NCBI RefSeq assembly: GCF_000018865.1
Contig: NC_010175.1
Span: forward strand, 868,001 to 932,000
Direction: 5' to 3'
Length of the DNA stretch: 64,000 nucleotides
DNA from: Chloroflexus aurantiacus J-10-fl
Lineage (GTDB): Bacteria; Chloroflexota; Chloroflexia; Chloroflexales; Chloroflexaceae
Both the position numbers and the translations under genes were made by a program. Shown in pieces: positions 1,495 through 54,144 of the stretch. The notes beneath the pieces are model-generated. The model had not been told where the DNA came from. It ran no database searches and worked only from the letters and a program-made list of their open reading frames with translations. Within the stretch, counting starts at the first letter, position 1. Each line of letters begins with the position of its first letter.

Positions 1495-4400
1495 ATGGCA
1501 GCGTCCTGTATCCGTAGCATGCTGTTAGGCGGATTGTTTATTCTCCTGGTCTCATTCAATGCACCGGTGTTTAGCATGCCGATCCTACACTCTTCACCAT
1601 TGACCTCAGGTGCTAATCAGGCTGGTGACACCCAAGAATCGGGTGCTATCCCATTACCACGAGGTTGTGGCGGCGTCACACCGCCGGGGGAAGTAGAGAC
1701 CACCTGCTGCCTGAACGGTATCGTATATGTTGATGGAGAGCCGGTTGCGGGGGCCGAAATTACGATCACCAGCTCACGTGGTACCAGTATTTCCCTGTAC
1801 ACCCGCTACATCAACACTGTTGACAACGTCCCATTTTACGAGATTAGCCTTAGTGACGATCCGCTACAAGTGCAAAGCGGTGAAACAATTACCATCACGG
1901 CACGACTTGGCAACCGAGAGCGTAGCCTGACTCATGAGGTGCAACCGGGAAGCCAACAAGTTGACATTGTGTTACCCCGCCGGAGTCCCAATGACTTTGT
2001 AGCCCTGCAATCAATACCGCTGCGCAGCATATCTGGCGAATTTGACGGCCTGAGCGGTATTGCAATCAACCCTGAGTATCAGGTATTTGTGGTTGATCAA
2101 GAAGCGCATCAGATTCAGGCCTTTGATACTAATGGTAATCCTCTTCAACCACCGTGGGGGCATTACGGGCAAAACCCAGGGCAATTTAACCTACCGCGTC
2201 GCGTAGTTGTTGACGCAAGCCGTAATGTCTATATCCTCGACGCCGGCAATCGTCGCATCCAAAAATTTGACCGACAGGGTCGCTATGTGCATTCGTGGAT
2301 GTTATGTACCCAACTCTCATCGTGTCCGTTCCCGTATGATCTTGCATTGGCGCCCGACGGAACTATTGCCGTTGTCTACAATCAGGGAGTGACCATCTTC
2401 AGCACTACCGGTGATTTGCAGCGGCAATGGTCAACCGGTATCCATGGCACAGACATCGACATTGATCGCAATGGAAACGTGTATATTACGACCGGACAAT
2501 CTGATATATATACATTCACCCCTGGCGGTCAGTTGACGACGACGCTGAACACACCGCTCACCTCTATTCAAAGCATGGCAATTGACCCAAGTGGCAACCT
2601 TTGGGTGACCGATCCGATCAATGGTATCGTCCGTCTGTCAACCACCGGCGCAATTGCACAGCAATGGACGATTCCGGGTGAACTCTTTAACGATATGGCC
2701 ATTGCACCAAACGGTCAGCTTTACCTGACGAGTTACACTAATAAGGTGCTGGTATTTGACCCAACACGCGGTACAACTCGATCATGGGGCAGATCAAGCC
2801 GGTATCGTGATGTTATCGGAACGGTGACCGTGCCCAATAATACTTTGTTTATTGCCAATCGTGAACCGGCTGCGGTTACCCGGTTGACATTCCAGCAATC
2901 TGTGACATCGACCCAAGTGGCGCTTAATCCGCTCCCAAGACGCATTGTTGATATGACCAAAGCTGCTGATGGTTCGGTCTATATCCTTGATCAATCAAGC
3001 TCGACCACTGCCCGCGTCTACAAAATCAATGCGCTCGGCCAACAACTCTTCTCATTTCCAATCAATGATGTCAGTGCAGGCGCAATTGCAGTAGCGCAAA
3101 ACGGCACTATCTTTATTGCGGAAGATCTCGATAATCAGGTCTTGCAATTCTCTGCCGATGGTCAATACCGTTCAAGCTGGGGCGGGACGGGTAGCAAACC
3201 CGGAAGATTCTATTTACCCAGTGATCTGGTAATTGACTCAAATGGATATATCTACGTCGCTGATCGAGGTAATGAGCGTATTCAAAAATTGCGGCTGGAC
3301 GGGACGGTGGAGAGAACGGTATCAGCTACCTTTGATCCTACTCTCGACAATGTATTGCAGGTATTTAATAACAACATCTATATCTATCGTGAAGACGCGA
3401 TTCGGGTTCGTGACAGCGACCTTACCAGCCCTCCGTTGTACACTATTGAACTGAATAATCAGGTGAAAGGATGGGACATCGATCAGCATGGGAACATCTA
3501 TGCCTTCAATCCGGATACGAGACAGATCGAGATATATCGCCCGATGCGGTTTACACAACCAATCGCCACGATCAGTTACCTCAACCTGAGCAGTCTGAGT
3601 GCTGATGATACGCTGATAGTGCAGGGTATGGGCCAAGACAGTGATGAAACGAACACCATCCATGCCTGGCGCTGGGAGTCAAACCAGAATGGTCAAATCA
3701 GCACCAGCCGAACATTAGCAATACCGGCTGCCAGTTTGAGTAGCGGTACACACACGATTACGTTAAAAGTCCAGGATAATGAAGGCGAGTGGTCTCAACA
3801 GACCAGTCTCTCAGTGTATGTTAGTCCACGCATTCAGAACATACCGGCCTGGACGATACTCCTTTACCTCGATGCCGATTATGCTGCCGATGGTCAAGCA
3901 TTACTGAAATCTTTCAATAACACTATCAGAAATCTTAAACAACTCAGTAATTCGTCTATTCGGATCGCTATCCAGATCGATGGGCCACAAAACAACGATA
4001 CTCGTCGCATACTTATTCATCCTGGTCAACCACCCAGCGAGAACAGCATATCAGAACAAGCAATGGATGATCCACTTACACTGGCGAACTTCTTACGTTG
4101 GGGGCAAGAGACCTTCCCGGCACGGCACTACTACCTGGCTATTGCCAATCATGGGCAGGGCGTCCAGGGCATTGCCTGGGACTCGACGAGTGACGCACGT
4201 GATGATGGGAGAAGAAACAACAGTGCGTATCTCACCATCAAAGAACTTGGTCAAGCGCTCAATGCACCCGGCGTCGCACCAATTGACGTGATTCACCTTG
4301 ATGCCTGCTCGATGGGACTGCTAGAGGTCGCTTTTGAACTGAGGCCGCGAAGTGAAGTGCCACTCCGATCACGCCTGCTCATCGCTTCGCAATACCTGGG

Positions 4401-21223: not shown

Positions 21224-21705
21224 AGATCTATCTCCCACGAGGCACGTTGCTGTGCGCGAACAATAGTATCTTTCAACCGTATGGTACCATAAGTCGTCTG
21301 CATAAAGTTACCTTTTCCCAACCGAATGTCAGAGACCGGTGATGAGAAGGCGGAAAACAGCTATAGGTCGTGAATGAGGTGTATACTGCTGTTAGATGTT
21401 CTCTACCGTTGATCGTGACGAGCAAACACAGCATCCTCGTGACCAGTATGGGCAACGGCGTGCCACACAATGGATCGTGAGCACGGCCTCTGCACTGCAA
21501 ACGCCGCGCCACGCGCATAACGAGCGGGCAAGGTAACCAATTCAGCGCGTGATGGCACAACCGAAGCTGCGCTCTGCCAACGAGCCAGGAGCCGGATAGA
21601 CTATCGTTGGCGATTGGCAAGTGTTCATGCGCCTGGGCGAAAAGCCGGGAGCACGACAGCACAGCTTTTATGAAATAAGTGCTAGTAATCACTGGAGATG
21701 TAGTT
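21224..21705. repeat. intergenic region with degenerate family B interior
   Basis: 21410-21600 follows the order of 52230-52420: a CGTGACCAG.ATGGG block, then ATCGTGAGCACGGC, then CACGCGCATAACGAGCGGG, then TCAGCGCGTG. No terminal inverted repeats were seen, so this is an eroded copy. It also holds the promoter region of the leftward GT28 operon, which I could not place. Confidence 0.45.
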
Positions 21706-39501: not shown

Positions 39502-40323
39502 ATGTCAATCGTCCAAATCATGCAGCACTACCACCACCGGCTTGGGATCAGCTATCTGACTGCCGGTGAGTCTGGCCCGGCCATCGTGTTTCTCCACGGG
39601 TGGGGCGCATTTAAGGAACTCTGGTGGAGCGCCCTTCGCGACCTTGGCCGTGATTACCGCTGTTTTGCCATCGATATGCCCGGTCATGGCGAGAGTCGGA
39701 TTGGACGGGCCGACCAGATTGAGCGGATTGCCGTGTTGATTGCCGATTTTTGCCATGATCTCGGCCTTTCAACCATCATTCTGGTCGGTCATTCGATGGG
39801 GGGCAGCGTTGCCGTCGAGATGACTCTTCACTACCCCCACCTGGTACAGCGCCTGGCTCTTATTGATGCGGCAGTCGACGCCTATCGCATGCCGGCCTAT
39901 ACCCGTATCTATCTGTTGCCACATCTCGGCTGGCCAACCTTTCGCCTGACCCAGGCTATTGGACGTGCGTTTCGACCGCTCGGTCAGCGGATACCGCACG
40001 AGCACGGTGGCGGCTGGATTCGTCCGTGGTTACGACGGGCATCGTACCTCGCCACGTTTGACCCAGAAGGATTGTACCGCATTTTGCGTTCGCTCTTCGC
40101 GACTCGCGCAGACGAACGACTGCAACAGATCCGTGTCCCAACCCTGGTAATGACCGGGCAGTTCGATAGTCTGGCCCCGCCTGCCCACGCTCGCCGTCTG
40201 GCCCAGGTGATACCCGGTGCACGCTATGTCATGATTCCGGTCAGTCTCCACAACCCAATGGACGAACGACCGCGGGCATTCACCCGCGCTCTCCGCGCAT
40301 TTCTCGCCGAGACCGACTCGTAA
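39502..40323 (+). CDS. alpha/beta hydrolase
   Basis: A 273-aa alpha/beta-hydrolase-fold enzyme with oxyanion motif HGWG (32-35), nucleophile Ser98 (GHSMGG), likely acid Asp222 (GQFDSLAPP) and His250 (SLHNPMDERP). The lid (about 130-185) is rich in Arg and aromatic residues. The substrate is unknown; relatives include esterases, lactonases and C-C hydrolases. No signal peptide. No good ribosome site precedes ATG 39502. It ends 10 bp before the left end of a MITE, beyond which another alpha/beta hydrolase gene lies. Confidence 0.8.
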   Translation: MSIVQIMQHYHHRLGISYLTAGESGPAIVFLHGWGAFKELWWSALRDLGRDYRCFAIDMPGHGESRIGRADQIERIAVLIADFCHDLGLSTIILVGHSMGGSVAVEMTLHYPHLVQRLALIDAAVDAYRMPAYTRIYLLPHLGWPTFRLTQAIGRAFRPLGQRIPHEHGGGWIRPWLRRASYLATFDPEGLYRILRSLFATRADERLQQIRVPTLVMTGQFDSLAPPAHARRLAQVIPGARYVMIPVSLHNPMDERPRAFTRALRAFLAETDS

Positions 40324-40332
40324 GCGGCAAGA

Positions 40333-40647
40333 TAATCCAAGTTGCCACCTTACGTCACTACAGCGGTGCGGGTCGTTGAGCGCGACGGGGGAGGGTGGAA
40401 CACGGATGGACGCGGGTGAGGCGGATGCACGCGGATAGCACCCAAGGTGTCACCTTATATCACCACAAAGACACGGCGGATGGGCATACCAGATGTGCGT
40501 GACGTCGTGCGTCTACGGAACTGGCTGCTACCCAAACGATTCGTACAGTTTAGTTACGCTGCACAATGTTGTACGCAGCGTCGTGCTGTTCATCATCGCA
40601 GGTAGTCTTTCGTGGCCTGCTCATAGCGTAGGTGGCAACTTGGGTTA
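40333..40647. mobile_element. MITE-like element, family A, 315 bp (copy 1)
   Basis: The ends TAATCCAAGTTGCCACCTTA (40333-40352) and TAGGTGGCAACTTGGGTTA (40629-40647) form an imperfect terminal inverted repeat. The whole element reappears inverted at 53460-53781, with long matches such as ATACCAGATGTG, ACTGGCTGC and CGTGGCCTGCTCA. It has no coding capacity and begins and ends with TA. It lies between two same-strand hydrolase genes. Confidence 0.8.
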
Positions 40648-40665
40648 AGATATGTCAGTTTCGCG

Positions 40666-41475
40666 ATGGTGCATTCAGAAAGTTATACTGTGATGAACCT
40701 TGAACCCTACCGCAAAGAGATCCAGCTTACCGGCACAGCACCGGTGCGATTGAACGTCGTGGACATCGGGCCACTCAATGGTGAATGCCAGGGTACCATT
40801 GTCTGTATTCATGGCTGTGCCGGTAATCTCGAACAGTGGATACACCAGATCAGCCATTTAGCCGGTCGTTATCGCGTCATTGCCCCAGATTTACGCGGCC
40901 ATGGTCGCTCTGAAGTCGTCAATTCGGCGTACTCACTCGAAGAGTTTTTGTGGGACATGACGCAGTTGATAACCCGCTTGCAAGTTGAGGAGCCATTTAT
41001 CCTGATGGCACACTCGTTCGGTGGGCCAATCGCCATCACCTTTGCCGCCAGCCAGCCTCATCGCGTCAGCCGGCTGATTCTGATTGCAACCGGGCCAGAA
41101 ATGCATCTGCATCCGCTCCACGAGCGAATCGTCAAGTTGCCGATCTCGCTGGCAATGCTGGAGAGGTTGCGGCCCATTTTGATGCCGAAAACCTATGCGC
41201 CGGTGAAGGTTATCCAGCGGGTACTGGCCGGCACGCTGTTCCGCTGGAACGGGCGAACCGTCTTGCCCCAGGTGCAGACACCGACGCTGATTATCGCCGG
41301 ACAGTGGGATTTTATCGCCCCGGTGGCCCAGGCCCGCGAGAGTCAACAATTAATGCCGAACGCCCGGCTTGAAATCGTGCGCTATACTCGCCATCTCCCC
41401 CATCTCGAACGTCCCGATGCGGTTAATCGTCTGATCGACCGTTTTCTGGAAGGGCCACGGAGCTGGCGTGATTAG
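40666..41475 (+). CDS. alpha/beta hydrolase
   Basis: A 269-aa alpha/beta hydrolase with oxyanion motif HGCAGN (49-54), nucleophile Ser117 (AHSFGG), likely acid Asp in AGQWDFIAPV and His in RHLPHLERP. It is similar in length and layout to the hydrolase on the other side of the MITE but only distantly alike, so not a recent duplicate. The start is uncertain: ATG 40666 is 19 bp from the MITE end and ATG 40693 is also in frame; neither has a clear ribosome site. The element may have displaced the original promoter. Confidence 0.78.
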   Translation: MVHSESYTVMNLEPYRKEIQLTGTAPVRLNVVDIGPLNGECQGTIVCIHGCAGNLEQWIHQISHLAGRYRVIAPDLRGHGRSEVVNSAYSLEEFLWDMTQLITRLQVEEPFILMAHSFGGPIAITFAASQPHRVSRLILIATGPEMHLHPLHERIVKLPISLAMLERLRPILMPKTYAPVKVIQRVLAGTLFRWNGRTVLPQVQTPTLIIAGQWDFIAPVAQARESQQLMPNARLEIVRYTRHLPHLERPDAVNRLIDRFLEGPRSWRD

Positions 41476-41634
41476 GCGTTCGCTCATTCATCACATGGGC
41501 GCTGGCAGTGAAGGTGTCATAGCAAATCTTGAGTTACACCGTACATCACTAAATTGCTATTGACACCAGCAGAGTCACGGCTGATAATCGAAACTGCCAG
41601 GTCTTCCCTCACCAGCATTGTAAGGGATAGTTGC

Positions 41635-43326
41635 ATGACCGATCTCTTTACCAGTCGTCCATGGCTTCGCCATTACGATCCGGGTGTGCCGGCAACGCTT
41701 GACCTGAAACCAGAGCCGTTGCCGGTGCTGTTGCAACAGGCCGCCGAGCGCTTTGCAGACGCCACTGCCATCGCCTTTTACGGTCGCACGCTCAGCTACG
41801 CCCGACTATGGGCAGAGACCAACCGGTTTGCCCGTGGCCTGCTCGGTACCGGCTTTCAACCGGGCGAGCGGGTGGTCATCCTGTTACCCAATATTCCCCA
41901 GTCCGTCATTGCCTACTTCGGCGTCCTGCTTGCCGGGGGGATTGTGGTTCTGGCTAATCCGATCTTTGACGCCGAAGGCTTTGCCCACGAGGTGCGTGAC
42001 TCGGGGGCGACAACAGTGATTGCGCTCAGTATGTTTCATCGGCTGGTTGAGCAGGTGCGGGCTGAACTACACTTTCCTCGGCTGATCTACACCAATCTGA
42101 AGGAATATCTGCCATCGAGCCAGCGTCTGCTCTTTACCCTGCTGCGTCAGGAGCAGGAAGGCCACCGGGTTCCCGATGCTCAGGCAAGCCAGGCGCTCTG
42201 GTTTCAACATCTGGTGGCTGCCGGTCAGGACGGCGAGTTGCCCACGCTCGACGCCGGCGATCCGGCTGTTATTCTGTATACCAGTGGCACAACCGGCGCC
42301 GCCAAGGGTGTGTTGCACCGCCACGCCAGCCTGTACATCAATGCGTATCAGACACGAATGTGGTACGCCGATGCCGAAGAGGGCAACGAGCGGGTGTTGT
42401 GCGTCATACCCTTCTCGCACGCTTACGGCATGACTGCCTGTATGAATGTTGGGATCGCGCTGGGCGCAACCCTGATCCTGCTCCCAACTTTCGAGACGCA
42501 CAACGTGCTGCATACCATCCGCCGTGAACGACCAACGATCTTTCCCGGCGTCCCCCCGATGTACGCGGCGCTCAACGAAGTGCGCGAGGTGCGCAAATAC
42601 GGCCTCTCGTCACTCAAGAGTTGTCTGAGCGGTGCCGCACCCCTACCGGTAGAGGTGCAGGAAGGCTTCGAGCGCATCACCCGTAGCCGCCTGGTTGAAG
42701 GGTATGGTCTGACTGAAGCGGGGCCGGTTACCCACGCCAATCCGTTGCGCGGCGCACGACGTGCCGGCACTATCGGCCTGCCAATCCCCGACACCGAAGC
42801 GCGGATCGTCGATCTGGAAACCGGTCAAGACCTGCCGCCGGGCGCAATCGGTGAACTGCTGATACGTGGCCCGCAGCTTATGGCCGGTTACTGGAACAAC
42901 CCGGAAGCAACTGCCGAAGCGCTCACGGCTGATGGCTGGTTGCGCACCGGCGACATTGCCCGGATGTTGCCTGACGGCTACTTTCAGATTATCGAGCGCA
43001 AGAAGGAGATGATCATCGCCGGCAACTACAATATCTACCCTCGCGATCTCGAAGAGGCGCTGTACGAACATCCGACGGTGATCGATGCCGCAGTCGTTGG
43101 GGTGCCGCTGCCCAATGGCAAGACAGAAGTGCGCGTCTTCGCCGTCACCCGACCCGGTGAACGGGTTAGCGAAGCTGAGGTGCTGGCATTTCTCCGCGAG
43201 CGCGTCAATCTGCCGGTTGTTCCCGACAAAATTGAGTTTCGCGAAGCACTACCGCGGAGCTTCATTGGTAAATTGCTGCGCCGCCGGTTAGTTGAAGAGT
43301 TGCTTTCACGCGAACAACGGTCATAA
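41635..43326 (+). CDS. AMP-forming acyl-CoA synthetase
   Basis: A 563-aa adenylate-forming enzyme that activates a carboxylic acid, most likely a medium- or long-chain fatty acid, to its CoA thioester via an acyl-AMP. The P-loop YTSGTTGAAKG is at 215-225, followed by the A5 motif EGYGLTEAGP, the A7 TGDIARMLPDGYFQI and the C-terminal lysine motif FIGKLLRR. The ATG at 41635 is chosen because AAGGGAT precedes it and family alignment begins there; an in-frame extension to 41554 is unlikely. It is followed by a hairpin at 43339-43369. Confidence 0.88.
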   Translation: MTDLFTSRPWLRHYDPGVPATLDLKPEPLPVLLQQAAERFADATAIAFYGRTLSYARLWAETNRFARGLLGTGFQPGERVVILLPNIPQSVIAYFGVLLAGGIVVLANPIFDAEGFAHEVRDSGATTVIALSMFHRLVEQVRAELHFPRLIYTNLKEYLPSSQRLLFTLLRQEQEGHRVPDAQASQALWFQHLVAAGQDGELPTLDAGDPAVILYTSGTTGAAKGVLHRHASLYINAYQTRMWYADAEEGNERVLCVIPFSHAYGMTACMNVGIALGATLILLPTFETHNVLHTIRRERPTIFPGVPPMYAALNEVREVRKYGLSSLKSCLSGAAPLPVEVQEGFERITRSRLVEGYGLTEAGPVTHANPLRGARRAGTIGLPIPDTEARIVDLETGQDLPPGAIGELLIRGPQLMAGYWNNPEATAEALTADGWLRTGDIARMLPDGYFQIIERKKEMIIAGNYNIYPRDLEEALYEHPTVIDAAVVGVPLPNGKTEVRVFAVTRPGERVSEAEVLAFLRERVNLPVVPDKIEFREALPRSFIGKLLRRRLVEELLSREQRS

Positions 43327-43338
43327 CCCAACAGACAC

Positions 43339-43369
43339 GGGTAGGCCAGGGTCATACCGGCGCCTACCC
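43339..43369 (+). terminator. hairpin after the acyl-CoA ligase
   Basis: GGGTAGGC (43339-43346) and GCCTACCC (43362-43369) pair 12 bp past the stop codon. There is no U tract. Confidence 0.5.
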
Positions 43370-43613
43370 CACCCACTCAGGTGACGCTTGCTGGCAGGAC
43401 TGATCGCTTTGTACAGGCCGAAGCCGGTGCTCACAGATAGCCGTTCCTGTCAGAGCCGATAGCGCATTACTGCTGAACTCACATGGATACTTCTACGTCC
43501 AACCACACCTTCCCGCTACTCGCCATCTCCCATAAGCAGGTTCTCTTGCAACCTCTGCACGATGTATCTCGTATCGAATACTGCAAGCTGATCGTAGCGA
43601 ACAGGAGTGAATC

Positions 43614-45128
43614 ATGAATAGGGTCCAACGAAGCGTTACGGCAGTAAAGCAATTGTTAGAGAGTGGTGAACTCGATCAATTGCAAATCAAGGCCAGCGAC
43701 TTCATTTCGCAGCGTTCAGGCAACGAAAGCGGAGCAACCCGGATCGAGCAGATGAGTGTTCTGCTCGATGAGGCGGCTGAGTTGCTGAACCGTAATCTGC
43801 AACAGCGCGATTCAGGCGGGCAGGTCGCCAACGTTATTTCACCGGTAGTGATCCCCCGTGATCCGCGTTCGGTGCTCTGGATCGCAGTCACCGCTATCCT
43901 GGTAGTGATCGGCCTAATCGGTTGGCTCTTCAGTCTGCTGATCGATACCGTCTCCTTGGGCTTCACCAACCTGAGCCTTGTTTTGTTCGGGCCGCACTAC
44001 TGGCTGTTGGTCATCGGCTATGTAGCCTACAGTCTCTGGCGTAACACCTTCATTATGGTGCCCGACGGCTGCCAGGCACTGATCACCCGCTTTGGCAGGC
44101 TGGAGGAGATCGCACCGGCAGGACGCAAAGTGTTGCTCGATCCGTGGAAGCGCGTGAGTTACATCGTCAATGTGACGCGCGAATATCCGTACAACGCGCC
44201 GATCCGGGAAGCACCAACCGCTTCGCGGGTTAATGCCTCGGTCGATCTCTTCTTGCAATTCAAGATCGAAGACCCGGCAGCGTTCATCTTTACCCTGGGT
44301 GGCGCAAAAGGCTTTCAAGAGAAGCTCCAGAATGCGGTTAGCGAAGTGACGCGCGCTCTGATCTATGAGCAGCGCGCTGAAGCCATCTACGATCTGGTAG
44401 GCGAGAGTACGCAGAGTCTGCTTGACACGCTGAACCAGCAATTTCTGCCAGCGGTACGCTTTGTCAACGCCAACATCACCCACGCCGAGCCGTCGAGTCA
44501 GGAGTACCGGATCGATCTCGCCAAACCGGAGATGATCCGGGTCGCGAAAGAGGCGTACACCTACGAATACGAACTGGCTCTGCGTAAGGAGCAAGATGAA
44601 GGTGATCTGAACCGGGAACTGGCCGGCCTGCGCGAGCAGTTGTCGGCTATTCAAGCCGAAATTGCCACCTACCAGGCCCAGATCGATATTGCCCGCGAGA
44701 AAGAGACGTACCGCGCTAATGCGTATGCCAGCCAGTTGCTGAGCGAAGCCGAGAGTACTGCCCGGGCCAACGCTGCCCTGCTGGAAGCGCAGGCGCTCGA
44801 TATTCGGGCAGTCGGTGCCGCACGTTATCCCGAAATTCTGCAATACCGGTACCAGCAAGATATTCTCGACCGCCTGGAAGCAGTGGCCGATCATCTGCCG
44901 CAGATCGTGCAGGTCGGTGGTGGTGAAGAGGCAGCTATCGACTATCTGGCCCTGGCGCAACGGATGCTGGGCATCACCGATACCCAGCTCTATTCGCCCG
45001 AAGATGTCGCTGCCATCCGTAGCCGTATGCAAGAGATTCGCCAGCGCATCCTGGCCCGATCTGAACAGATCGCCCAAGTCGTCACCACTGAGACCGAACA
45101 GCGCAGCGAGAAAGGAGAACCGCGGTGA
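43614..45128 (+). CDS. SPFH/band-7 membrane protein (first of pair)
   Basis: A 504-aa protein. A helical N-terminus (1-75) is followed by VVIPRDPR and two membrane segments (about 88-140), an SPFH/prohibitin domain (about 142-320; FIMVPDGCQALITRFGRLEEI), a coiled-coil rich in Glu/Ala/Gln (about 325-410) and a C-terminal helical tail. SPFH proteins form ring-like membrane scaffolds that organise lipid domains or regulate membrane proteases. GGAG, 6 nt before ATG 43614, supports the start. Its stop codon overlaps the GTG start of a shorter paralogue, so the two are made together and may form a hetero-oligomer. Confidence 0.85.
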   Translation: MNRVQRSVTAVKQLLESGELDQLQIKASDFISQRSGNESGATRIEQMSVLLDEAAELLNRNLQQRDSGGQVANVISPVVIPRDPRSVLWIAVTAILVVIGLIGWLFSLLIDTVSLGFTNLSLVLFGPHYWLLVIGYVAYSLWRNTFIMVPDGCQALITRFGRLEEIAPAGRKVLLDPWKRVSYIVNVTREYPYNAPIREAPTASRVNASVDLFLQFKIEDPAAFIFTLGGAKGFQEKLQNAVSEVTRALIYEQRAEAIYDLVGESTQSLLDTLNQQFLPAVRFVNANITHAEPSSQEYRIDLAKPEMIRVAKEAYTYEYELALRKEQDEGDLNRELAGLREQLSAIQAEIATYQAQIDIAREKETYRANAYASQLLSEAESTARANAALLEAQALDIRAVGAARYPEILQYRYQQDILDRLEAVADHLPQIVQVGGGEEAAIDYLALAQRMLGITDTQLYSPEDVAAIRSRMQEIRQRILARSEQIAQVVTTETEQRSEKGEPR

Positions 45129-46360
45129 GTGAGCCACGACGTGAATTTTCGCGTATCCGCGAGGCAGTAGCGACCTGGAACCGCATCCGGCAACTCCTTC
45201 GCTCCGGTGAAGAGGGGCAACTGGTGCCGGTGGTGATTCCCAGAGATCGCCGACGGGCACGCTGGCTTTTGCCACTGGCCATCGGGTTGTATCTGATCGG
45301 TGTCGCCGTCTTCAGTGGGGGAGTCTTCGGCGGTCTGGCGCTCTTCCTGGCGCTGATCTTCTTTATCTGGGCCGGGTTGTCGTTTGTACTCGGTGCGATT
45401 ATCGAGATCGAACAGGGCACAACCGGTATTCTGTCGCGCTGGGGACAGATTGTCGGTACACTGTCACCGGGTCGTCATTACCTTTGGTGGCCGTGGGAGA
45501 AGGTCGAGGCCGTGGTTGACACCAGCACCGAGATTCCGTACACCGCACCGGTGATGGCGGCGCCAACCCGCGAAAATGTGCCGTTGAAGTCCATCGAATT
45601 CTTCTTGAAGTTCCGGATCGAAGACCCCGTCGCCTTTGTGCGCCGCCTGGGAGCCAGTAACTTCGATCTGGTGCTGAGCAGTGCGGTGCAGGACGCCATT
45701 CGGCAGCGGGCACGCCGGGTTGAAACCGAACGCGCCTACGATCTGCGTGGCAGCGATGTCGGTGATATGCAAGAGCTACTCAACCGCCAACTGGCCCGCT
45801 ACGGTGTCCGCATTACCGGTGCCAACATTCCTGATGTGCAATTGCCCGATCAGTATCAGCAGCACCTGGCGACCCGCGAGCGTGTCGCGAAAGAGTTGCA
45901 AGCCTACGCACGTGAATGGGAACTGATCAAAAAGCAACGGATCGACGGTCTGCTACTTGAGATTGAGCGTGCCAGGAAGGTGCGCGACGCCAAACTGGTC
46001 GAGGTACGGGCAGCGATCAATAAAGCCCGTGAAGACGTGGCGCGTATGCTGCAAGAGAAAGAGGCCGAAGCGCAGCGCGTGCGTTGGGAGATCGAAGCGC
46101 GTGGCCGGGCAACTCTACGCCAGGCCGAAAATGAGGCGCGCGGTCTGGAGTATCTTGGTCAGGCGTACCAGGACAATCGGGCTGTGCTGCAATATGAATT
46201 GGCCCGGCGCCGGCTTCAGGTGGCCGAAACACTGATGAAACGCGCCCCACGCCCGATTGTCATCCAGAGCGACGGCGGCGATGCTTCGGCATTAACTACG
46301 CTGCTAACGGCGCAGTTGTTGCCGAAATTGACCGGTAATGGGGATGGGATGGGGAAGTAG
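45125..46360 (+). CDS. SPFH/band-7 membrane protein (second of pair)
   Basis: A 411-aa paralogue of the preceding gene, starting with GTG in a GTGA overlap. It repeats the VVIPRDRR box (about 37-44), two membrane segments (about 48-95), an SPFH domain (about 97-270; EIEQGTTGILSRWGQIVG) and a long coiled coil (about 260-370; LLEIERARKVRDAKLVEV). The C-terminus is short. Shared order of motifs suggests gene duplication within the operon. The shared PRD-R box next to the membrane is a distinctive family trait. Confidence 0.85.
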   Translation: MSEPRREFSRIREAVATWNRIRQLLRSGEEGQLVPVVIPRDRRRARWLLPLAIGLYLIGVAVFSGGVFGGLALFLALIFFIWAGLSFVLGAIIEIEQGTTGILSRWGQIVGTLSPGRHYLWWPWEKVEAVVDTSTEIPYTAPVMAAPTRENVPLKSIEFFLKFRIEDPVAFVRRLGASNFDLVLSSAVQDAIRQRARRVETERAYDLRGSDVGDMQELLNRQLARYGVRITGANIPDVQLPDQYQQHLATRERVAKELQAYAREWELIKKQRIDGLLLEIERARKVRDAKLVEVRAAINKAREDVARMLQEKEAEAQRVRWEIEARGRATLRQAENEARGLEYLGQAYQDNRAVLQYELARRRLQVAETLMKRAPRPIVIQSDGGDASALTTLLTAQLLPKLTGNGDGMGK

Positions 46361-46872
46361 GAGGTAGAAAATAGGAAATAGGGAATGTTAGGGAGGGGAA
46401 GGGAGGTTAATCCCTTTCTCTCTATGTTTTTAGGGGTGGACAGAACACGTGATTGCAGGCGAGGGGTGTCAAATCCGGGTTGCTGAAGTTATTGCTCGTG
46501 ATCACACCCTCACGCCAGCAGTGACCTGATCACGGACACGGAGAACGGCGCTTCCGCTGCGCACGCAGTGGGATCAAACGCCGTAGCTACGGTTTCCCGA
46601 CCGGATTGCCTGTGTCGCGTCGTTTACAGTGCAGCAGCCACGCTATCGCATCAGCCAGGCTCGTGATCAGGGGCAGATGCAGCGGTTTCCCTGATCCACA
46701 TACTCACGTTCCCGGAGGAGCCGTTTTGAGATATTCCCATCGCTGATCACCCTATCAAATTGGGCAGGTAGGGGCGGGTTCAGCCCCCACAGACGGTGCA
46801 TGTACCTGTTCACATTGCCATGCGATGAGGTTCAAACATTGTATTTTTCAGATTCCACCCCTTCCAACACTG
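46361..46872. other. intergenic region (512 bp)
   Basis: No gene is supported. It begins with an AGGAGGTAGAAAATAGG/AAATAGGGAA near-repeat right after the SPFH gene. At 46766-46789 it contains a truncated member of the GTAGGGGCGGGTT palindrome family. It ends in the promoter of the HTH/ImmA gene. Confidence 0.4.
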
Positions 46873-46909
46873 GTTGACAAAGTGTCAGCGAACAGCGATA
46901 ATTGTCAAC
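46873..46909 (+). promoter_or_regulatory. strong promoter with overlapping palindrome (operator)
   Basis: TTGACA (46874-46879), an exact 17-nt spacer and GATAAT (46897-46902). GTTGACA (46873-46879) and TGTCAAC (46903-46909) form a 7-bp inverted repeat that covers both boxes, and GTGTCAG / CTGTCAG adds a direct repeat. This is a typical site for autorepression by the HTH protein encoded immediately downstream. Confidence 0.7.
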
Positions 46910-46928
46910 TGTCAGGAAGGAGTTGGCC

Positions 46929-48197
46929 ATGATTAGTCAACGATTGCGCCAGTTGCGGTTGGCGCGCGGCATGACCCTCAGCGATCTGGCTCAGGCAACC
47001 AACCACATTGTTACCCGTCAGGCTATTTCCAAGTATGAACATGGGCACGCTCAACCATCACCGACGGTGCTTCAGCGCTTAGCGCAGGCACTCGGTGTCC
47101 GACCGACCGATCTCCTCGACGGTGCCAATATCCGGGTAGATGTCGTTGCCTATCGTAAACGGGCTTCGCTCGGCAAACGACAGAGTGAGCATCTCGCCGC
47201 GTTGGCCGAAGAGGCATTGCGCGAACGGGTGCGATTACAACGGCTTATTGGCGACACCAGGGTACTCGATGTCCCGTTGCAGGAGTATCCGGTGAAGAAT
47301 CTGGACGACGTTGAGTCTGCGGCTACCGCTCTCCGTAACCGTTGGGATCTGGGTAGTGCACCGATTGCCAATTTGACCGACGTGTTAGAAGATCACGGCT
47401 TGCACGTTATCGAACTCGCAACCATTGACGGCTTCGATGGCGTTGCTGTAATTGCCCGTGATGAACACGGTCATCCGCTGGCCGCAGCGGTGATTGCGCA
47501 GCGGAGCGATGATGGTGCGCGATGGCGGATGAATCTCGCCCACGAGCTGGCGCATCTGGTGCTGCAACCGCAAGACAATCTCGATGAAGAGAAGGCTGCG
47601 TTTCGCTTTGCAGCGGCATTTCTCGCGCCAGCCCATGATCTGCGCGCCTTTATCGGTGAGCGCCGTCATCATCTACATCTGGATGAATTGCTCTTGATGA
47701 AGCACCACTTCGGTATGAGCATCCAGGCGCTGCTTTACCGCATGCAGACGCTGGACATTATCAGTCCATCTCTCTTCCGCAAGTGGATGATCGAATTCGG
47801 TGAACGGGGCTGGCGAATGGCAGAACCGGAACCACTGCCACACGAAGAACCGCTCTGGTTGCGGCGGGCCACCCTTCACGCCCTGGCGGAAGAGCTGATC
47901 GATCCCGCAGAAGCGCAGCGTTTGCTGGGTGATGAGGTGGCAACCGGTGTGGCGCAGGCCGTTTTCGCCGAAACTGTCATCCCTGAGACTATTCCTGAAA
48001 CCATCCAGGCCGAGGATGTGCCGGAAAGTCATTACCCACCGCCACCTCCAGCTCACACTGTTCCCTGCCGGCAATTGCTCCGGCTACCGCAGGCTGAACG
48101 CCATGCGATCCTGGCTGCGCAGGCGGCCAATGCACTCGATCTCTATCAGTCTGTCGCCGATTCTGTAAACGAGGTCGCAACGAGTGAGCACAAGTAA
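46929..48197 (+). CDS. HTH-XRE / ImmA-IrrE metallopeptidase, probable antitoxin
   Basis: A 422-aa protein in three parts. An XRE helix-turn-helix (1-65; LRLARGMTLSDLAQ...ISKYEHG) comes first. An ImmA/IrrE zinc-metallopeptidase domain (about 110-280) has His205-Glu206-x-x-His209 (NLAHELAHLVL). A proline-rich linker (about 365-378) then leads to a helical tail at about 381-412 (LLRLPQAERHAILAAQA). That tail resembles the toxin-facing C-terminus of small MazE-like antitoxins (LPxxERxxIL..QA). AGGAAGGAG is 6 nt before ATG 46929. It overlaps a MazF/PemK-like gene by 14 nt. The reading is a self-repressing antitoxin or stress-sensing protease; which role dominates is inference. Confidence 0.85.
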   Translation: MISQRLRQLRLARGMTLSDLAQATNHIVTRQAISKYEHGHAQPSPTVLQRLAQALGVRPTDLLDGANIRVDVVAYRKRASLGKRQSEHLAALAEEALRERVRLQRLIGDTRVLDVPLQEYPVKNLDDVESAATALRNRWDLGSAPIANLTDVLEDHGLHVIELATIDGFDGVAVIARDEHGHPLAAAVIAQRSDDGARWRMNLAHELAHLVLQPQDNLDEEKAAFRFAAAFLAPAHDLRAFIGERRHHLHLDELLLMKHHFGMSIQALLYRMQTLDIISPSLFRKWMIEFGERGWRMAEPEPLPHEEPLWLRRATLHALAEELIDPAEAQRLLGDEVATGVAQAVFAETVIPETIPETIQAEDVPESHYPPPPPAHTVPCRQLLRLPQAERHAILAAQAANALDLYQSVADSVNEVATSEHK

Positions 48198-48534
48198 ATC
48201 GCCCCGGCGTGGTGAGATCTGGCAGGCCGATCTCGGTGATCAAACATCAGGGTTAGTGTTGATAGTGAGTACTGACGCTTTTGAACATCTGCCGATCCGT
48301 CTGGTCGCCCGCTTGCGCCCATGGGAAGACCGGTTTGCCGGTATGGTGTGGTTGCAGCGTCTGGAGGGAACCTGGCCGACCCGCTTAGGTAAGCCACACG
48401 CCGTTGATCTGTTACAGTTGCACTCGATTGAGGTGCATCGCTTGCGCACGATGGTCGGACGAGCACCGGCCATCAGAATGGATGAGATTGCTGCGGCAAT
48501 TGCGCTGGTAGTAGATTATAATCCTGCCGGGTAA
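48184..48534 (+). CDS. MazF/PemK-like toxin
   Basis: A 116-aa protein with the MazF/PemK opening RRGEIWQADLGD and following strand GLVLIVSTDAF. The usual QVRTI..RL segment appears as LQLHSIEVHRLRTMVGR, so at least one residue that matters for RNA cleavage in known MazF proteins may be changed. MazF enzymes cut mRNA at short motifs. The start is GTG 48184, inside the end of the HTH/ImmA gene, with GAGG 9 nt upstream. Gene order (regulator first, toxin overlapping) is that of a toxin-antitoxin unit. The protein may be active, altered in specificity or decayed. Confidence 0.7.
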   Translation: MSTSKSPRRGEIWQADLGDQTSGLVLIVSTDAFEHLPIRLVARLRPWEDRFAGMVWLQRLEGTWPTRLGKPHAVDLLQLHSIEVHRLRTMVGRAPAIRMDEIAAAIALVVDYNPAG

Positions 48535-48566
48535 GTCAACGACCGCAACCCAACCAACGTATACGC

Positions 48567-50876
48567 ATGAACTATAGCGCACAACCAGATATGACCACCA
48601 CGTCCACAGGTTTCACCATCAATGCCGGTGCACTGCTGGCAAGCGCACCGGCAACCGCAACCGCAACCGCCCTTAATGAAGCTCTGGCCGCATACGGTCT
48701 CTGTCTGCCGGTTGCCCCGTTACACACCGACGCAACGCTCGCCGAACTGGTAGCCTGTAACAGTGGTGGTCGGTATCGGTTGTACAGCGGGCCAATCGGT
48801 CGCTATGTGCGGGCAGCAACCCTGGAAACCGCCAGTGGTCTGTTGCACGTCGGCGGCCCAACCCTCAAGCGGGCAACTGGCTACAACCTGCACCGCGCAC
48901 TGGCCGGGCAGGGCGTGCGCCTCGGTGATCTGCGTGAATTGACGTTCAATTTGCGCCCTTTGCCGGCAATGACCACCCTGTACCTGGTAGCGGGGCCGCT
49001 TGACCGGTTGTTGATGCTGGCAGCCGATCTAATGACCGCCAATCTGGAGCTGCGGGCATTAGCGTTCGATGCCGGTGGATTGCTCCTCATCGCCCTGGCC
49101 GGCCTGCCAGAAGTGGTGACTCGCCAGTCGCAGCAGGTACTGGCAATGGCAGATCTCCATCAGCTCGCCGTTACCCGTGACCCCGCCAACGGCTGGCGGC
49201 ATTGGGAAGAGCTTGCGCGCCGGCATTGTGCTCTGCCCGCCGACCAACGCCTCGATATGACACTACCGCGCAGCAAACTGGCCGAGGGGATCGCCGCCTG
49301 TCGGCAGATCGGTGATGCCGCTACCACCATCTGGGGCGATCTGGGTGTAGGGAGCATCCACGTCACGCCATTACCTGACGCCCGGCGCTATGCAACGTTG
49401 AAAGCGCAGCTAGCCACACTCGGCGCTCAACCGTGTTACGAGTTTGGCCCACCGCCACAACCGCCCTATCCAACCCTGACCCCTCGCAAGCACCAGACGC
49501 CTGGCGATTGTATCGCTGCCCTCAAACAGGTGGTTGGTGACCGTTACCTGATCCACCATCCCGACCAACTGGCGGTCTACGGGCAGGACGCCTCGATTGC
49601 CGAGGCCGAAGCATTGCCGTATGCGGTCGCCTTACCGGCCAGCACGGCTGAAGTCGCCGCCCTGATGCAGATTGCGGCTGCACATGATCTGCCGGTAGTT
49701 ACCCGTGGGGCCGGCAGTGGCCTGGCAGGCGGCGCCGTACCAACACCGGGGTGCCTGGTGATTGGCCTGAACCGCATGGAACAGATAACTATTGATCGCG
49801 GGCAACAGGTTGCCCACGTGGGCGCCGGTGTCATCACTGCCGAACTACAACGGGCCGCCGAGCGCGTTGGCCTCTTCTACCCCCCCGATCCGAGCAGTCA
49901 GGCGGCCTCGACCATCGGCGGCAATATCGCCTGCAACGCCGGTGGGCCGCGGTGTCTGAAATATGGAGTAACTGCCGATTACGTATTGGGATTAACGACG
50001 GTACTGGCCGACGGCTCCATCGCCCGCTACGGCGATGGCCTGGCCGGTCAGGGTGAGAGCGATGGATTAGTGCAACTCCTTGTCGGCTCCGAAGGAACCC
50101 TGGCCGTGATTACCGAGGCAACCCTGCGGCTGATCCCACTGCCCCGCGCCCGCCGCACGACCATGGCGATCTTCGCCGATCTGGCCGCAGCCTGTGCCAC
50201 AGTCGAACGGATCATGGCATCGGGGATTATTCCAGCCAGTCTGGAGCTGATGGATGACACCACTATCGCCGCCGTGGAAGCGTATCTGCGCATCGGCCTG
50301 CCGGCTGATGCCGGAGCGATGTTATTAATGCTGGCCGATGGTGAACCGGAAGCGGTTGAACGCGACGCAGCAGCCCTGGCCGAACTGGCAAAGGCCGGCG
50401 GCGCACAACGGGTAGCAGTGGCGCGCAACGCCACCGACGAAGCAAACCTCTGGCAGGCACGACGAGTGATCGCACCGGCCCTGGCTCGCATTCGCCCTAA
50501 CCGATTGGGTGAAGACATCAGCGTACCGGTGACCCGCATCGCCGAATGTGTCGGCCAGATCAAGCAGGTAAGCGCCACCTACGGCCTGCCTATCGTAGTC
50601 TTTGGTCATGCCGGCGACGGCAACCTGCATCCAAACATCCTCTTCGATGCCCGCAATCCGACCGAAGTGGCGCGATTATGGCCGTGCGCAGAAGCCGTCT
50701 TCAAAGTGGCGCTGGCCGTGGGTGGTACGCTGTCGGGAGAGCACGGTATCGGCACCCTCAAACGACCATTCATGACCCAGGCGCTCGGTGAGGCCCAGCT
50801 TGCTGTGCAACGTCAGATCAAAGCCCATTTCGACCCCACCGGTCGGCTGAATCCTGGCAAAGTACTCCCGGTATGA
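48567..50876 (+). CDS. GlcE-GlcD fusion, FAD-linked glycolate/D-2-hydroxyacid dehydrogenase
   Basis: A 769-aa flavoprotein. Residues about 310-769 are a full GlcD subunit with the FAD pyrophosphate loop VTRGAGSGLAGGAVPTPG (about 377-394), PPDPSSQAASTIGGNIACNAGG, and the C-terminal GHAGDGNLHPNILF and GEHGIGTLKRP motifs. Residues 1-300 resemble GlcE (GPIGRYVRAATLETASG, GPTLKRATGYNLHRAL) but lack the FAD-binding loop, so only one FAD is expected. The enzyme would oxidise glycolate or a related D-2-hydroxyacid. The iron-sulfur GlcF subunit is not next to it. No clear ribosome site; ATG 48591 is an alternative start. It overlaps the methyltransferase gene that follows. Confidence 0.8.
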   Translation: MNYSAQPDMTTTSTGFTINAGALLASAPATATATALNEALAAYGLCLPVAPLHTDATLAELVACNSGGRYRLYSGPIGRYVRAATLETASGLLHVGGPTLKRATGYNLHRALAGQGVRLGDLRELTFNLRPLPAMTTLYLVAGPLDRLLMLAADLMTANLELRALAFDAGGLLLIALAGLPEVVTRQSQQVLAMADLHQLAVTRDPANGWRHWEELARRHCALPADQRLDMTLPRSKLAEGIAACRQIGDAATTIWGDLGVGSIHVTPLPDARRYATLKAQLATLGAQPCYEFGPPPQPPYPTLTPRKHQTPGDCIAALKQVVGDRYLIHHPDQLAVYGQDASIAEAEALPYAVALPASTAEVAALMQIAAAHDLPVVTRGAGSGLAGGAVPTPGCLVIGLNRMEQITIDRGQQVAHVGAGVITAELQRAAERVGLFYPPDPSSQAASTIGGNIACNAGGPRCLKYGVTADYVLGLTTVLADGSIARYGDGLAGQGESDGLVQLLVGSEGTLAVITEATLRLIPLPRARRTTMAIFADLAAACATVERIMASGIIPASLELMDDTTIAAVEAYLRIGLPADAGAMLLMLADGEPEAVERDAAALAELAKAGGAQRVAVARNATDEANLWQARRVIAPALARIRPNRLGEDISVPVTRIAECVGQIKQVSATYGLPIVVFGHAGDGNLHPNILFDARNPTEVARLWPCAEAVFKVALAVGGTLSGEHGIGTLKRPFMTQALGEAQLAVQRQIKAHFDPTGRLNPGKVLPV

Positions 50877-51658
50877 TGATCACCAGCCTCGCCAATCCAA
50901 CCATCAAAGCCCTGCGTGCGCTCAGGCAACGCAAAGCTCGCGACGAGCAGGGGCGCTACCTGATTGAAGGGATTCGCCCGGTCGCCGAAGCGATTCAATG
51001 CGGTGCACCGCTCGACATGCTGGTCGTTGCCCCTGAACTGCTCAACAGCAGCTTTGCGCACGAACTGATCGACACCTATGCTGCTGGCGGCGGCAAAATA
51101 CTGACCGTCAGTGCAGCAGTCTTCAGCAGCCTGGCCGACAAAGACAACCCGCAGGGCCTGGCAGCCGTCGGGCGCATACACTACACCCCCCTCCCCAACC
51201 TGTCGCCGGCGCCGGTTGGCTGGGTGGTACTGGTTGAAGTAGCCGATCCGGGCAACCTGGGCACAATCTTACGCACTGCCGATGGTGCCGGCTTCAGCGG
51301 CGTCATCCTGGTCGGCGCAACGACCGACCCCTTCGACCCGGCAGCGGTGCGGGCCAGCATGGGCGCCCTCTTCAGCCAACAGATTGCACGCACGAGCTGG
51401 CCCGATCTGCTGACCTGGGCACGACAGCACCGTATCGCCCTGGTCGGCAGCTCTGATCGCGGAGCCAGTGACTACCGGGCCACAACCTACCCGCGACCAC
51501 TGCTCCTGGTGCTGGGCAGCGAACGGCACGGCCTGACGGACGAACAGCTTGCCGCCTGTGATCTGGTTGTCCGTATTCCAATGCGGGGGCGTAGCGACTC
51601 GCTCAATCTGGCAGTGGCAGCCGGCATCCTGATGTACGAAGCGACCCGCTCACAATAA
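50873..51658 (+). CDS. SpoU/TrmH-family RNA 2'-O-methyltransferase
   Basis: A 261-aa SPOUT methyltransferase that transfers methyl from AdoMet to a ribose 2'-OH in rRNA or tRNA. An N-terminal substrate-binding domain (about 1-100; RDEQGRYLIEGIRPVAEAI) precedes the SpoU domain with motif 1 NLGTILRTADGAGF, motif 2 LLVLGSERHGL and motif 3 IPMRGRSDSLNLAVAAGIL, which form the trefoil-knot AdoMet site. The start codon overlaps the stop of the glycolate-dehydrogenase gene. The exact target nucleotide is not predictable here. Confidence 0.88.
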   Translation: MMITSLANPTIKALRALRQRKARDEQGRYLIEGIRPVAEAIQCGAPLDMLVVAPELLNSSFAHELIDTYAAGGGKILTVSAAVFSSLADKDNPQGLAAVGRIHYTPLPNLSPAPVGWVVLVEVADPGNLGTILRTADGAGFSGVILVGATTDPFDPAAVRASMGALFSQQIARTSWPDLLTWARQHRIALVGSSDRGASDYRATTYPRPLLLVLGSERHGLTDEQLAACDLVVRIPMRGRSDSLNLAVAAGILMYEATRSQ

Positions 51659-52015
51659 TCAGCGGTTGCCCAGCCGACATCGCCCCGGATGGGTGCAGAC
51701 GGTGTCTTTCCCCACGTGCCTCATATGATGTTGTGATAGTCGCAATTCACCCGTCTCCAACATCATCCAGCCTGTGCAACCAGATCGCCATCCAGCGCGC
51801 CACTGCCAATAGGAGAGCGATCCTGTCGCATGTCAGCACTGCACTGTCAAACACATCACTCCCCAAAAAGTCCTGACAGACTTTATACCTTCACCCTGAC
51901 GCTACGGTTGTGAGGGTTCCACCACTGTGCACGAGCGCAGCTCCCCCTGGGAGCGTGATCCTCCGGCTTGCTCGTCACCTGACACAGCACGCCCCCTCCC
52001 AACCCCCCCCGCTGG
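51659..52015. other. intergenic region left of family B element
   Basis: I see no gene, terminator or promoter that can be supported in this stretch. Confidence 0.3.
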
Positions 52016-52494
52016 CTATGCAGTACCCACATGTCACGCTGCGTTAGGCTGGACTGCCAGCGCTCCCCGTGGTGGCTTCCCGTGGCGCAGGCTTCCAGCC
52101 TGCGTGGAAGCATTCCTCTCCACCGCCGGCAGTTGCGAGCCGTGGCCGCTGGTGCGCAGGTACGAACCTGGTGCAACAATACGTCTACGCACAGGTAGCT
52201 CATTCATGCCAGACCGAATCCATGATCGGAACGATCACATCCAGCTTTTCCGTGACCAGGATGGGGAACAGTGTGACACGCACCGAATCGTGAGCACGGC
52301 TGGCGCGGCAGCATGGCTGCCGCACTCCACACTGCGCGACACGTGCATAACAAGCGGGTACGGCAATCCATCCAGCACGTGCCGGCACGGCTGGGGCGGC
52401 GCACTGTCATCGGGCCAGTTGCCCACAACAGCACCCATAGCGATCATCCCCGCTAATACGCACGTGGTTGACACCAGTTGTGGGTAATGCATAG
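52016..52494. mobile_element. MITE-like element, family B, 479 bp with 16-bp TIRs
   Basis: The ends CTATGCAGTACCCACA (52016-52031) and TGTGGGTAATGCATAG (52479-52494) are inverted repeats at 15 of 16 positions. The left third matches the element at 5635; the right half (from GTGAGCACGGCTGGCGCGGC, about 52291) matches 6250-6452 and, less well, 21455-21600. No transposase gene. It includes GCAGGCTTCCAGCCTGC, a palindrome also present in the other copy. Confidence 0.7.
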
Positions 52495-52797
52495 GGGGGA
52501 GGAGCTGAGAACGTGCTTCCGCCCTAGCAGGGACAGTGTAGGCTGGGGGGATGTCGTAGGTGGTAGTAACGCACACCCGATACCCCTGCCATCAATCATC
52601 CCGGTGCGGCACCTGAGCGCGAATGTGCATCTGCGACACGTCCTGGCGACTCGCTGGTGATACGCCTGGCAGCGCTCCCGCACAGGTCTGACAACCTGAC
52701 TAATGCACAGCATCACTCAAGATTTGACACAAGCACCTGTCATCTCGTGAACATGATGGGTACCCATCCCACACAAGAACGGTCAGTTGCATTTGAA
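52495..52797. other. intergenic region right of family B element
   Basis: Nothing supportable. A frame of about 60 codons (52478-52660) runs out of the repeat and lacks a ribosome site. Confidence 0.3.
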
Positions 52798-53418
52798 TTA
52801 CGCCTCAACCGCCAACCGTACTCCCAAACCGGCCAGTACCGCTCCCGTGGCATAGTTGAGCCGACGACGCACGTCACTGCGGCGCAGCCAGACACTGACC
52901 CCGGCGACAACAAAGGTTAGGGTTGAAAACCAGAGAATGCTGAACATGAAGTGGATGGTCGTGAGCGCGAGTGCCGACCACAAAACCGGATCACCTGGAT
53001 CGATAAACTGCGGCAAAAATGCCAGATAAAACACCGCAACTTTTGGATTGAGGACATTGCTCAATAAACCTTCGACAAAGGCATGGCGCTCTTGACCGAC
53101 GGGCAGATGCGGTTCCTCCGTTGATCGTTGTCGCCAGGTGGTAATAATCGTCCACAGACCTAACCCGGCCAGATAGCAGGCACCGGCCAGTTTGAGCGCG
53201 TGGTAGAGCTGTGCCGACTGGAGCACAATCGCGGCTAACCCCAAACCGGAGAGCGTTGCCTGCACGAACAGACCACTCCCGATACCAAAGGCAGTTGCAA
53301 TACCGGCGAGGCGCCCGCGAGCCAGGGCATTGCGCAGCACCAGCATGGTGTCAGCACCGGGGATGAGAGTCAGGATGGCAACCGCAATCGTGTAGGCGAT
53401 CAGGCGTTCGGGAACCAT
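52798..53418 (-). CDS. LysE/RhtB-family exporter
   Basis: A 206-aa inner-membrane protein of the LysE superfamily with about six membrane segments and the typical opening TIAVAILTLIPGADTMLVLRNALARGRLAGIATAFGIGSG. The family exports amino acids such as lysine, threonine or homoserine lactone; the substrate is not evident. GGAG 5 nt before ATG 53418 supports this start over a longer frame to 53445. A MITE copy begins 41 bp upstream of the start codon and may carry or disrupt its promoter. Confidence 0.85.
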   Translation of the reverse strand: MVPERLIAYTIAVAILTLIPGADTMLVLRNALARGRLAGIATAFGIGSGLFVQATLSGLGLAAIVLQSAQLYHALKLAGACYLAGLGLWTIITTWRQRSTEEPHLPVGQERHAFVEGLLSNVLNPKVAVFYLAFLPQFIDPGDPVLWSALALTTIHFMFSILWFSTLTFVVAGVSVWLRRSDVRRRLNYATGAVLAGLGVRLAVEA

Positions 53419-53459
53419 AGCAACTCCGTAAGCATCAACAAGCATTATTCAGACTATGA

Positions 53460-53781
53460 TAACCCAAGTTGCCACCTACACTGTGAGCAGGCCACGAAAG
53501 ACTACCTGCGATGATGAACGGCACGACACTGCGCACAACATCATGCAGCGTACCTGAACGGTATGAATCGTTTGGGTCGCAGCCAGTTTCGTAGACGCAC
53601 TACGTCACACACATCTGGTATGACTATCCGCCGTGTCGCTGTGGTGATAGAAGGGAGCACCGTGGGTGACGATCTATCCGCGTGCATCCGCCAAACCCGC
53701 GTCCATCCGTGTGCCACCCCTCCCCCCGTCGCGCTCAACGACCCGCACCGCTATGGTGACGTAAGGTAGCAACCTTGGTTA
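53460..53781. mobile_element. MITE-like element, family A, 322 bp (copy 2, inverted)
   Basis: The ends are TAACCCAAGTTGCCACCTA (53460-53478) and TAAGGTAGCAACCTTGGTTA (53762-53781). It is the reverse complement of 40333-40647 with scattered differences, so both copies derive from one element. It begins and ends with TA; no coding capacity. Confidence 0.8.
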
Positions 53782-54144
53782 CTATACCTCAAGCCGGCAC
53801 CTGCGAGCGCAATCAGGTTTGTACCGCAGGTATGTCGGCGAAAACCTGGCACAAACCATTGCCTACCGCAATCCAGATGCGTACCGAAAGCAGGTTCCAG
53901 ATTCTACACATATGCGCACTAGAGGCAGACGCGCACAGTGAATAATCCTCGTTCTTGATACTCACCAGCAGGTTGATCACGGGGAAGAGTTTCGTGCTCA
54001 CACCTGCCCATCACCGACGGCAGGCACTATGCCAACCGTCATATACCACGATATGACCAACATCTGACCTTTGACACTGTTGGCTCAGCCCATTCCTTTG
54101 TATAGTAGAGGCAGCGAAGGGAGTCAGCGAAAGAGAGGTAGACA
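53782..54144. other. intergenic region (363 bp)
   Basis: I see no gene. TTTGACA and TATAGT near 54080-54108 could be part of a promoter for the membrane-protein gene, but the spacing is not canonical. Confidence 0.3.

Follow-up and report, generated by a model that had tools for sequence, protein, structure and literature searches.

What are the two repeats of about 315 bp that face each other in inverted orientation across a 13-kb segment of the Chloroflexus aurantiacus J-10-fl chromosome, where did they come from, and do they act on the genes beside them? The stretch of DNA analysed here, which we call the window, has a length of 64,000 nucleotides and covers positions 868001-932000 of a single-contig genome of 5,258,541 bp. 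The original prediction held that the repeats are MITEs sharing inverted repeats at their ends (TIRs), that they may bring or remove promoters, and that they could mediate inversion of the DNA between them. The inverted pair itself is readily confirmed: a DNA alignment of copy A (plus strand) with copy B (reverse complement) gives 87.8% identity over 319 bp (E 3.6e-112), with a longest run of identity of 36 bp, and TAACCCAAGTTGCCACCT is found at all four ends with 1, 0, 0 and 3 mismatches. This sequence matches five times in the window, against 0.08 matches expected from shuffles. The fifth match is a lone TIR-like site at window positions 2583-2600, with 3 mismatches and no partner found in the window. 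The copies measure 315 and 322 bp with their outer TA dinucleotides included, and the list of open reading frames contains none of 90 or more amino acids inside either. The features of the locus are as follows (window coordinates).

40328..40334, no strand: left target duplication of copy A, CAAGATA, 6/7 identical to the right one
40333..40350, plus strand: left TIR of copy A, 1 mismatch to TAACCCAAGTTGCCACCT
40335..40645, plus strand: copy A, long-form MITE, element proper ATCC...GGGT (40333-40647 with outer TA/TA)
40438..40455, plus strand: internal TIR-like direct repeat of copy A, 4 mismatches to the TIR
40630..40647, minus strand: right TIR of copy A, 0 mismatches
40646..40652, no strand: right target duplication of copy A, TAAGATA
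40693..41475, plus strand: alpha/beta-hydrolase-like gene downstream of copy A, ATG conserved in 7 congeners (name from sequence)
52798..53418, minus strand: LysE-like gene downstream of copy B (name from the original prediction)
53455..53461, no strand: candidate left target duplication of copy B, TATGATA, 5/7 identical to the right one, decayed
53460..53477, plus strand: TIR of copy B, 0 mismatches
53462..53779, minus strand: copy B, long-form MITE, element proper ACCC...TGGT on the plus strand (53460-53781 with outer TA)
53764..53781, minus strand: TIR of copy B, 3 mismatches
53780..53786, no strand: candidate right target duplication of copy B, TACTATA

A multicopy family with long and short forms

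The two copies belong to a family that is dispersed across the genome. Used as a DNA query, copy A returns 49 matches; the 18-bp TIR, allowing up to 3 mismatches, returns 141, compared with 3 for the reversed pattern, and a second, left-end pattern returns 59. These searches yield at least 77 TIR-bounded pairs, comprising 17 long copies (315-337 bp), 59 short copies (203-231 bp) and one doubtful pair (306 bp, with 6 mismatches at one end), in addition to 17 good single TIR ends that lack a partner. The figure of 77 is a lower bound, because it derives from the first 100 of the 141 TIR places and from reading about 5% of the genome. Long copies (n=17) differ from the consensus by a median of 6.8%, and short copies (n=46) by 13.8%. 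The long form consists of an extra block with its own TIR followed by the short-form module (positions 108-315 match short copies); in copy A the module common to the short form begins at the internal TIR-like repeat, which lies at an equal offset in other long copies. Likewise, several short copies carry another TIR-like repeat at about +57. We infer from these extra repeats that new 5' ends have been captured repeatedly.

Some copies lie in more complex arrangements. At genome positions 1975313-1977182, five long MITEs and one short MITE form a tandem array with a 331-bp period and the 9-bp spacer TGATAATGA. The five long units are 97.0-99.4% identical and fall into two alternating types; this level of identity indicates recent growth of the array, for which unequal crossing-over of a two-unit block is the probable mechanism. 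Far from the array, at 4,939,341-4,939,349, the spacer recurs as its reverse complement between a partial copy and a 337-bp copy (genome 4939285-4939686). Nested copies are also seen. A different dispersed repeat is present at window positions 21381-21690; it has 49 matching rows among the stretches fetched, with one place represented twice. At least five short MITEs sit at one point of this repeat, in or adjoining its TTTATGAAATAAG (for example at genome positions 1949300, 2120171, 3056199, 3142338 and 3999838). The flanks of these nested copies match the other repeat family and so provide empty sites, somewhat ambiguous ones.

Two further observations concern motifs of the short form. One of them, CCACAGAGACACAGAGGACACAGAG, has 115 matches in this genome at up to 3 mismatches (none for the reversed control), some of them outside MITEs. 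The notion that this motif is widespread in bacteria was dropped for this phylum, in which 7 of 120 other Chloroflexota genomes contain it, at 1-4 matches each. In addition, an unrelated tandem array at genome positions 119918-121482, in which a 193-bp unit is repeated 8.1 times at 94% match, begins with a CACAGAG-rich motif that is present in short MITEs too; the 10-kb stretch around this array contains no TIR at up to 4 mismatches.

True ends and target duplication

The true ends of the element are ACCC...GGGT, and the outer TA dinucleotides behave as target duplication, which sets the element proper at 40335-40645 for copy A and 53462-53779 for copy B. Among 71 copies (the 77 pairs minus 6 array members), an exact direct repeat of 6-10 bp flanks 23, against about 1.1 in shuffled flank pairs, and is absent from the other 48. 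The mode is 7 bp (14 of the 23), with the consensus TA-TSA-TA, that is, the pattern TA-N3-TA. The duplications of copies A and B agree at 6/7 and 5/7 positions, indicating that both copies are somewhat aged. A different reading, in which the TIR starts with TAA and the duplication spans 3 bp (exact in 29 of 63), predicts an identical empty site for most copies. It was replaced on three grounds. Some copies with a non-TA outer dinucleotide still match across the element (691379 TATGACA, 3358974 AGATCTA, 4667156 TATGTCA; other non-TA copies have no such match), duplications longer than 3 bp are seen, and IS982 ends are described as beginning with AC (PMC7335449).

Absence from relatives

The family is nearly confined to this genome among those compared. 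A whole-element search finds no copy in any of the 7 congeners or in 11 other members of the taxonomic family, and one short, weak match in each of two genomes of the order. When 2 mismatches are allowed, the TIR matches at most once in each of 60 relatives, like the control, compared with 125 times here. The two hydrolase genes that flank copy A are neighbours in 7/7 congeners, where 78-148 bp separate them as against about 390 bp here; the insertion is thus absent from all seven by gap length, the intergenic DNA of the congeners being too diverged for a base-exact alignment of the empty site. For copy B, one congener has both neighbours in order, with 636 bp between them versus about 850 bp here, and no MITE match in that genome.

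These comparisons also bear on whether the repeats might be regulatory elements or non-coding RNAs, conserved at fixed places upstream of genes, the alternative against which the MITE reading had been set from the start. Copy A does fold better than 100 of 100 shuffles (z -2.5), largely because its inverted ends pair. However, the element is missing from 7/7 congeners and from the orthologous copy A site, the window has no Rfam match, target duplications flank copies, and some copies are nested in another repeat, all of which leaves this explanation with a negligible probability. The pattern suggests instead that MITEs proliferated in this genome's lineage once it had separated from the other sampled Chloroflexus species, a conclusion that we hold jointly with the identification of their parent given below, and as strongly.

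An IS982 parent

A search for the parental transposase, proposed together with the original prediction, was extended to other genomes by way of the TIR. Scanning 84,980 species genomes for TAACCCAAGTTGCYACCT gave at least 117 stretches, where chance would give an estimated 15 or so across the collection as a whole. In 49 of these stretches two TIRs are paired at a spacing of 90-1300 bp, and an exact 6-9 bp duplication flanks 27 of these pairs, versus about 1.2 in shuffles. Six pairs among the matches listed are 859-1001 bp long; the 1001-bp pair has 5 mismatches at one end and no duplication. Four genomes, those of Calidithermus chliarophilus, Rhabdochromatium marinum, a Rubrobacter MAG and Thermus sp. 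2.9, hold an IS982 transposase inside the TIR pair. The four intact elements measure 899, 963, 929 and 895 bp and contain, in this order of lengths, open reading frames of 275, 263, 276 and 280 aa. All four proteins exceed the curated cut-off of 130 for the NCBIfam model NF033520 IS982 (148, 166, 139 and 143 bits) and that of Pfam PF13612. A fifth element (859 bp, from a Poribacteria MAG) is partly masked and shows a matching transposase fragment by eye, and the remaining pairs are mostly 137-170 bp, of MITE length. Searches for mobile carriers gave no match to the element in plasmids and phages; in IMG/VR, three stretches each contain a single TIR that has no partner at the lengths tested. 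Among IS982 genes of other Chloroflexales, none of the 10 loci fetched has the present TIR.

Could another DDE transposase family, such as IS5 or IS4, have given rise to these MITEs, the IS982-like ends being a product of convergence? The genome does contain 25 matches to PF01609, and IS5 and IS4 models also weakly match the TIR-bounded proteins of the other genomes. Yet a local parent of IS4/IS5 type was rejected when no TIR pair was found at any of the 25 PF01609 loci (with as many as 6 mismatches allowed at each end, and the ends correctly arranged), and in 4/4 cases the TIR-bounded proteins pass the IS982 cut-off but fail those of IS5 and IS4. We therefore regard such an origin as very unlikely.

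The host genome itself retains traces of IS982. It has no IS982 gene above the NF033520 cut-off and five sub-threshold matches. One of its loci, at about 789.8-790.4 kb, is a small, degenerate relic scoring 20.5 bits against the cut-off of 130; near 790.03 kb it resembles the Rhabdochromatium transposase (E 1.8e-5, with one stop; tblastn E 7e-10). The start of the relic is TIR-like with 5 mismatches, and its 3' end matches MITE copies, the best match covering 82 bp at 82% (E 8e-16). Furthermore, the right part of the MITE translates as the C-terminal tail of an IS982 transposase in the expected place beside the right TIR (best tblastn E 1.9e-5). Profile searches of translated copies for this tail are weak, with best E values of 0.025 and 0.069 (best shuffled 5.5 and 0.94), and the first of the two profiles took in one probably wrong open reading frame. 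The relic with its stop is the only counterpart of a matching transposase found in this genome; given that no intact one was found, the family is presumably immobile here at present.

Taken with the ends and duplications, these data argue strongly that the two repeats are MITEs, non-autonomous derivatives that arose by deletion from an insertion sequence of the IS982 family, a reading to which we assign a probability of roughly 0.93. The copies retain the IS982 inverted repeat ACCCAAGTTGCYACCT. Beside the right repeat lies what is left of the 3' end of a transposase gene, and the 5' portion contains additional TIR-like direct repeats. Acting in trans, an IS982 transposase would recognise the TIRs and mobilise the copies, with insertion at TA-N(3-6)-TA targets and duplication of about 7 bp. 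IS982 ends fit 5'-AC(N)6T(N)5TT (PMC7335449), and ACCCAAGTTGCYACCT agrees with this consensus at 4 of 5 positions: the initial AC, the T in ninth place and a single T of the final pair. The core of the original prediction, that the repeats are MITEs, is well supported by the TIRs, target duplications, many dispersed copies, empty sites in relatives and a parental transposase family in other genomes; its ideas on promoters and inversion fare differently.

Neighbouring genes and gene order

Copy B lies 41 bp from the LysE-like start (53418), as first described. The distance of 19 bp given for copy A does not hold: the start conserved in 7 congeners, ATGAACC, is at 40693 rather than at the beginning of the longest open reading frame (40666), so that the gap is about 45 bp. 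The annotated hydrolase start, upstream of the congener-conserved ATG, is itself questionable. With copies about 45 bp and 41 bp upstream of gene starts, and with outward promoters reported for some IS982 elements (PMC9330008), the insertions might have supplied the hydrolase or LysE gene with a promoter, or moved one away from it, and so altered its expression. A scan of 421 bp around each copy (40300-40720 and 53400-53820), which covered promoters of sigma-70-like type only, found no such promoter and no intrinsic terminator where 0.3-0.4 were expected. The promoter idea thus finds no support here, and we consider an effect on expression unlikely.

The suggestion that A and B are an invertible pair flipping the 13-kb segment draws on their opposite orientation and 88% identity over 319 bp. 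Against it, the longest identical run is just 36 bp, the genes on either side of copy A keep the same neighbour in 7/7 congeners, and the hydrolases and LysE gene are collinear in 4/4 testable congeners (in the other three they are on different contigs). Given this collinearity, the reference order is the ancestral order; inversion is unsupported, and we judge it highly improbable that the pair acts in this manner. Inversion in a minority of cells, or regulation through another kind of promoter, may be compatible with these results.

Relation to known elements and the reach of the TIR

It is informative to compare the family with described IS982 elements. According to PMC7335449, 57 of 69 IS982 members begin with AC and direct repeats span 2-10 bp; the Chloroflexus family resembles them in its AC-starting ends, the length of its inverted repeat and its variable direct repeats, and its intact same-TIR relatives, at about 0.85-1.3 kb, match in length and in transposase model (NF033520). 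In contrast, the window copies are 315-322 bp long without a transposase gene, and the host lineage lies outside the listed origins, the term "Chloroflex" being absent from that paper. A closer likeness is to MITECca01/02 of Cardinium cOegib, which derive from ISCca4 of the IS982 family (PMC9769881). These elements of about 240 bp are likewise short, IS982-derived, high-copy, lineage-specific and often inside other repeats, and a related form retains the 3' end of the transposase gene. Cardinium, however, still has intact copies of ISCca4, whereas no intact IS982 with this TIR was found in the Chloroflexus genome, and the likeness is one of description, the text of PMC9769881 giving no TIR. 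IS982-derived MITEs are therefore known already, and the present family is one more, with its parent named. Our searches, mostly of literature outside subscription journals, found no paper that contains both Chloroflexus and IS982.

The distribution of the TIR is the less expected result. Among the 35 of at least 117 loci that were looked at, TIR pairs flanked by an exact duplication of 5 bp or more come, by record title, from eight phylum-level groups (Deinococcota, Gammaproteobacteria, Rubrobacter, Cyanobacteria, Armatimonadetes, Chloroflexi, Ignavibacteria and Poribacteria), a 5-bp duplication being weak evidence for Rubrobacter and Ignavibacteria; the TIR matches in Acetothermia form no pair. 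In 14 of 14 genomes, chosen as already having a match, the TIR is present at up to 1 mismatch, in numbers from 2 and 3 (low counts, one with a control match) up to 168. The richest are a Thiotrichales MAG (144, control 1) and an Armatimonadetes MAG (168, control 0). MITE-length elements of Poribacteria, Pseudanabaena, Armatimonadetes and others share the TIR and TA-bounded duplications of about 7 bp with the Chloroflexus element, and differ from it in being mostly 137-170 bp and in having interiors that are unlike it by eye.

These observations invite speculation that one IS982 subgroup with a near-invariant 16-bp TIR has repeatedly spawned MITE families in at least eight phylum-level groups, each with unrelated DNA and with the TIR alone heritable, and that stranded copies, such as those here, are mobilised again when an IS982 of the subgroup visits from neighbours (relatives of Thermus, Calidithermus and Pseudanabaena carry it). 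We offer this tentatively, as a proposal with the odds well against it. If it were true, the TIR would be a cross-phylum exchange standard for orphan DNA, and a history of repeated end capture would be recorded in the extra internal TIR copies that the Chloroflexus forms have at the 5' end.

For the organism itself, a large and previously unassigned repeat family of a model phototroph can now be regarded, at the strength given above, as IS982-derived, with exact ends and a target preference, so that its copies can be annotated and can serve as markers of strain divergence. More broadly, a 16-bp end with matching duplications in eight phylum-level groups, for which one search recovers both autonomous and non-autonomous forms, gives a handle on how transposases and their MITEs travel between phyla.
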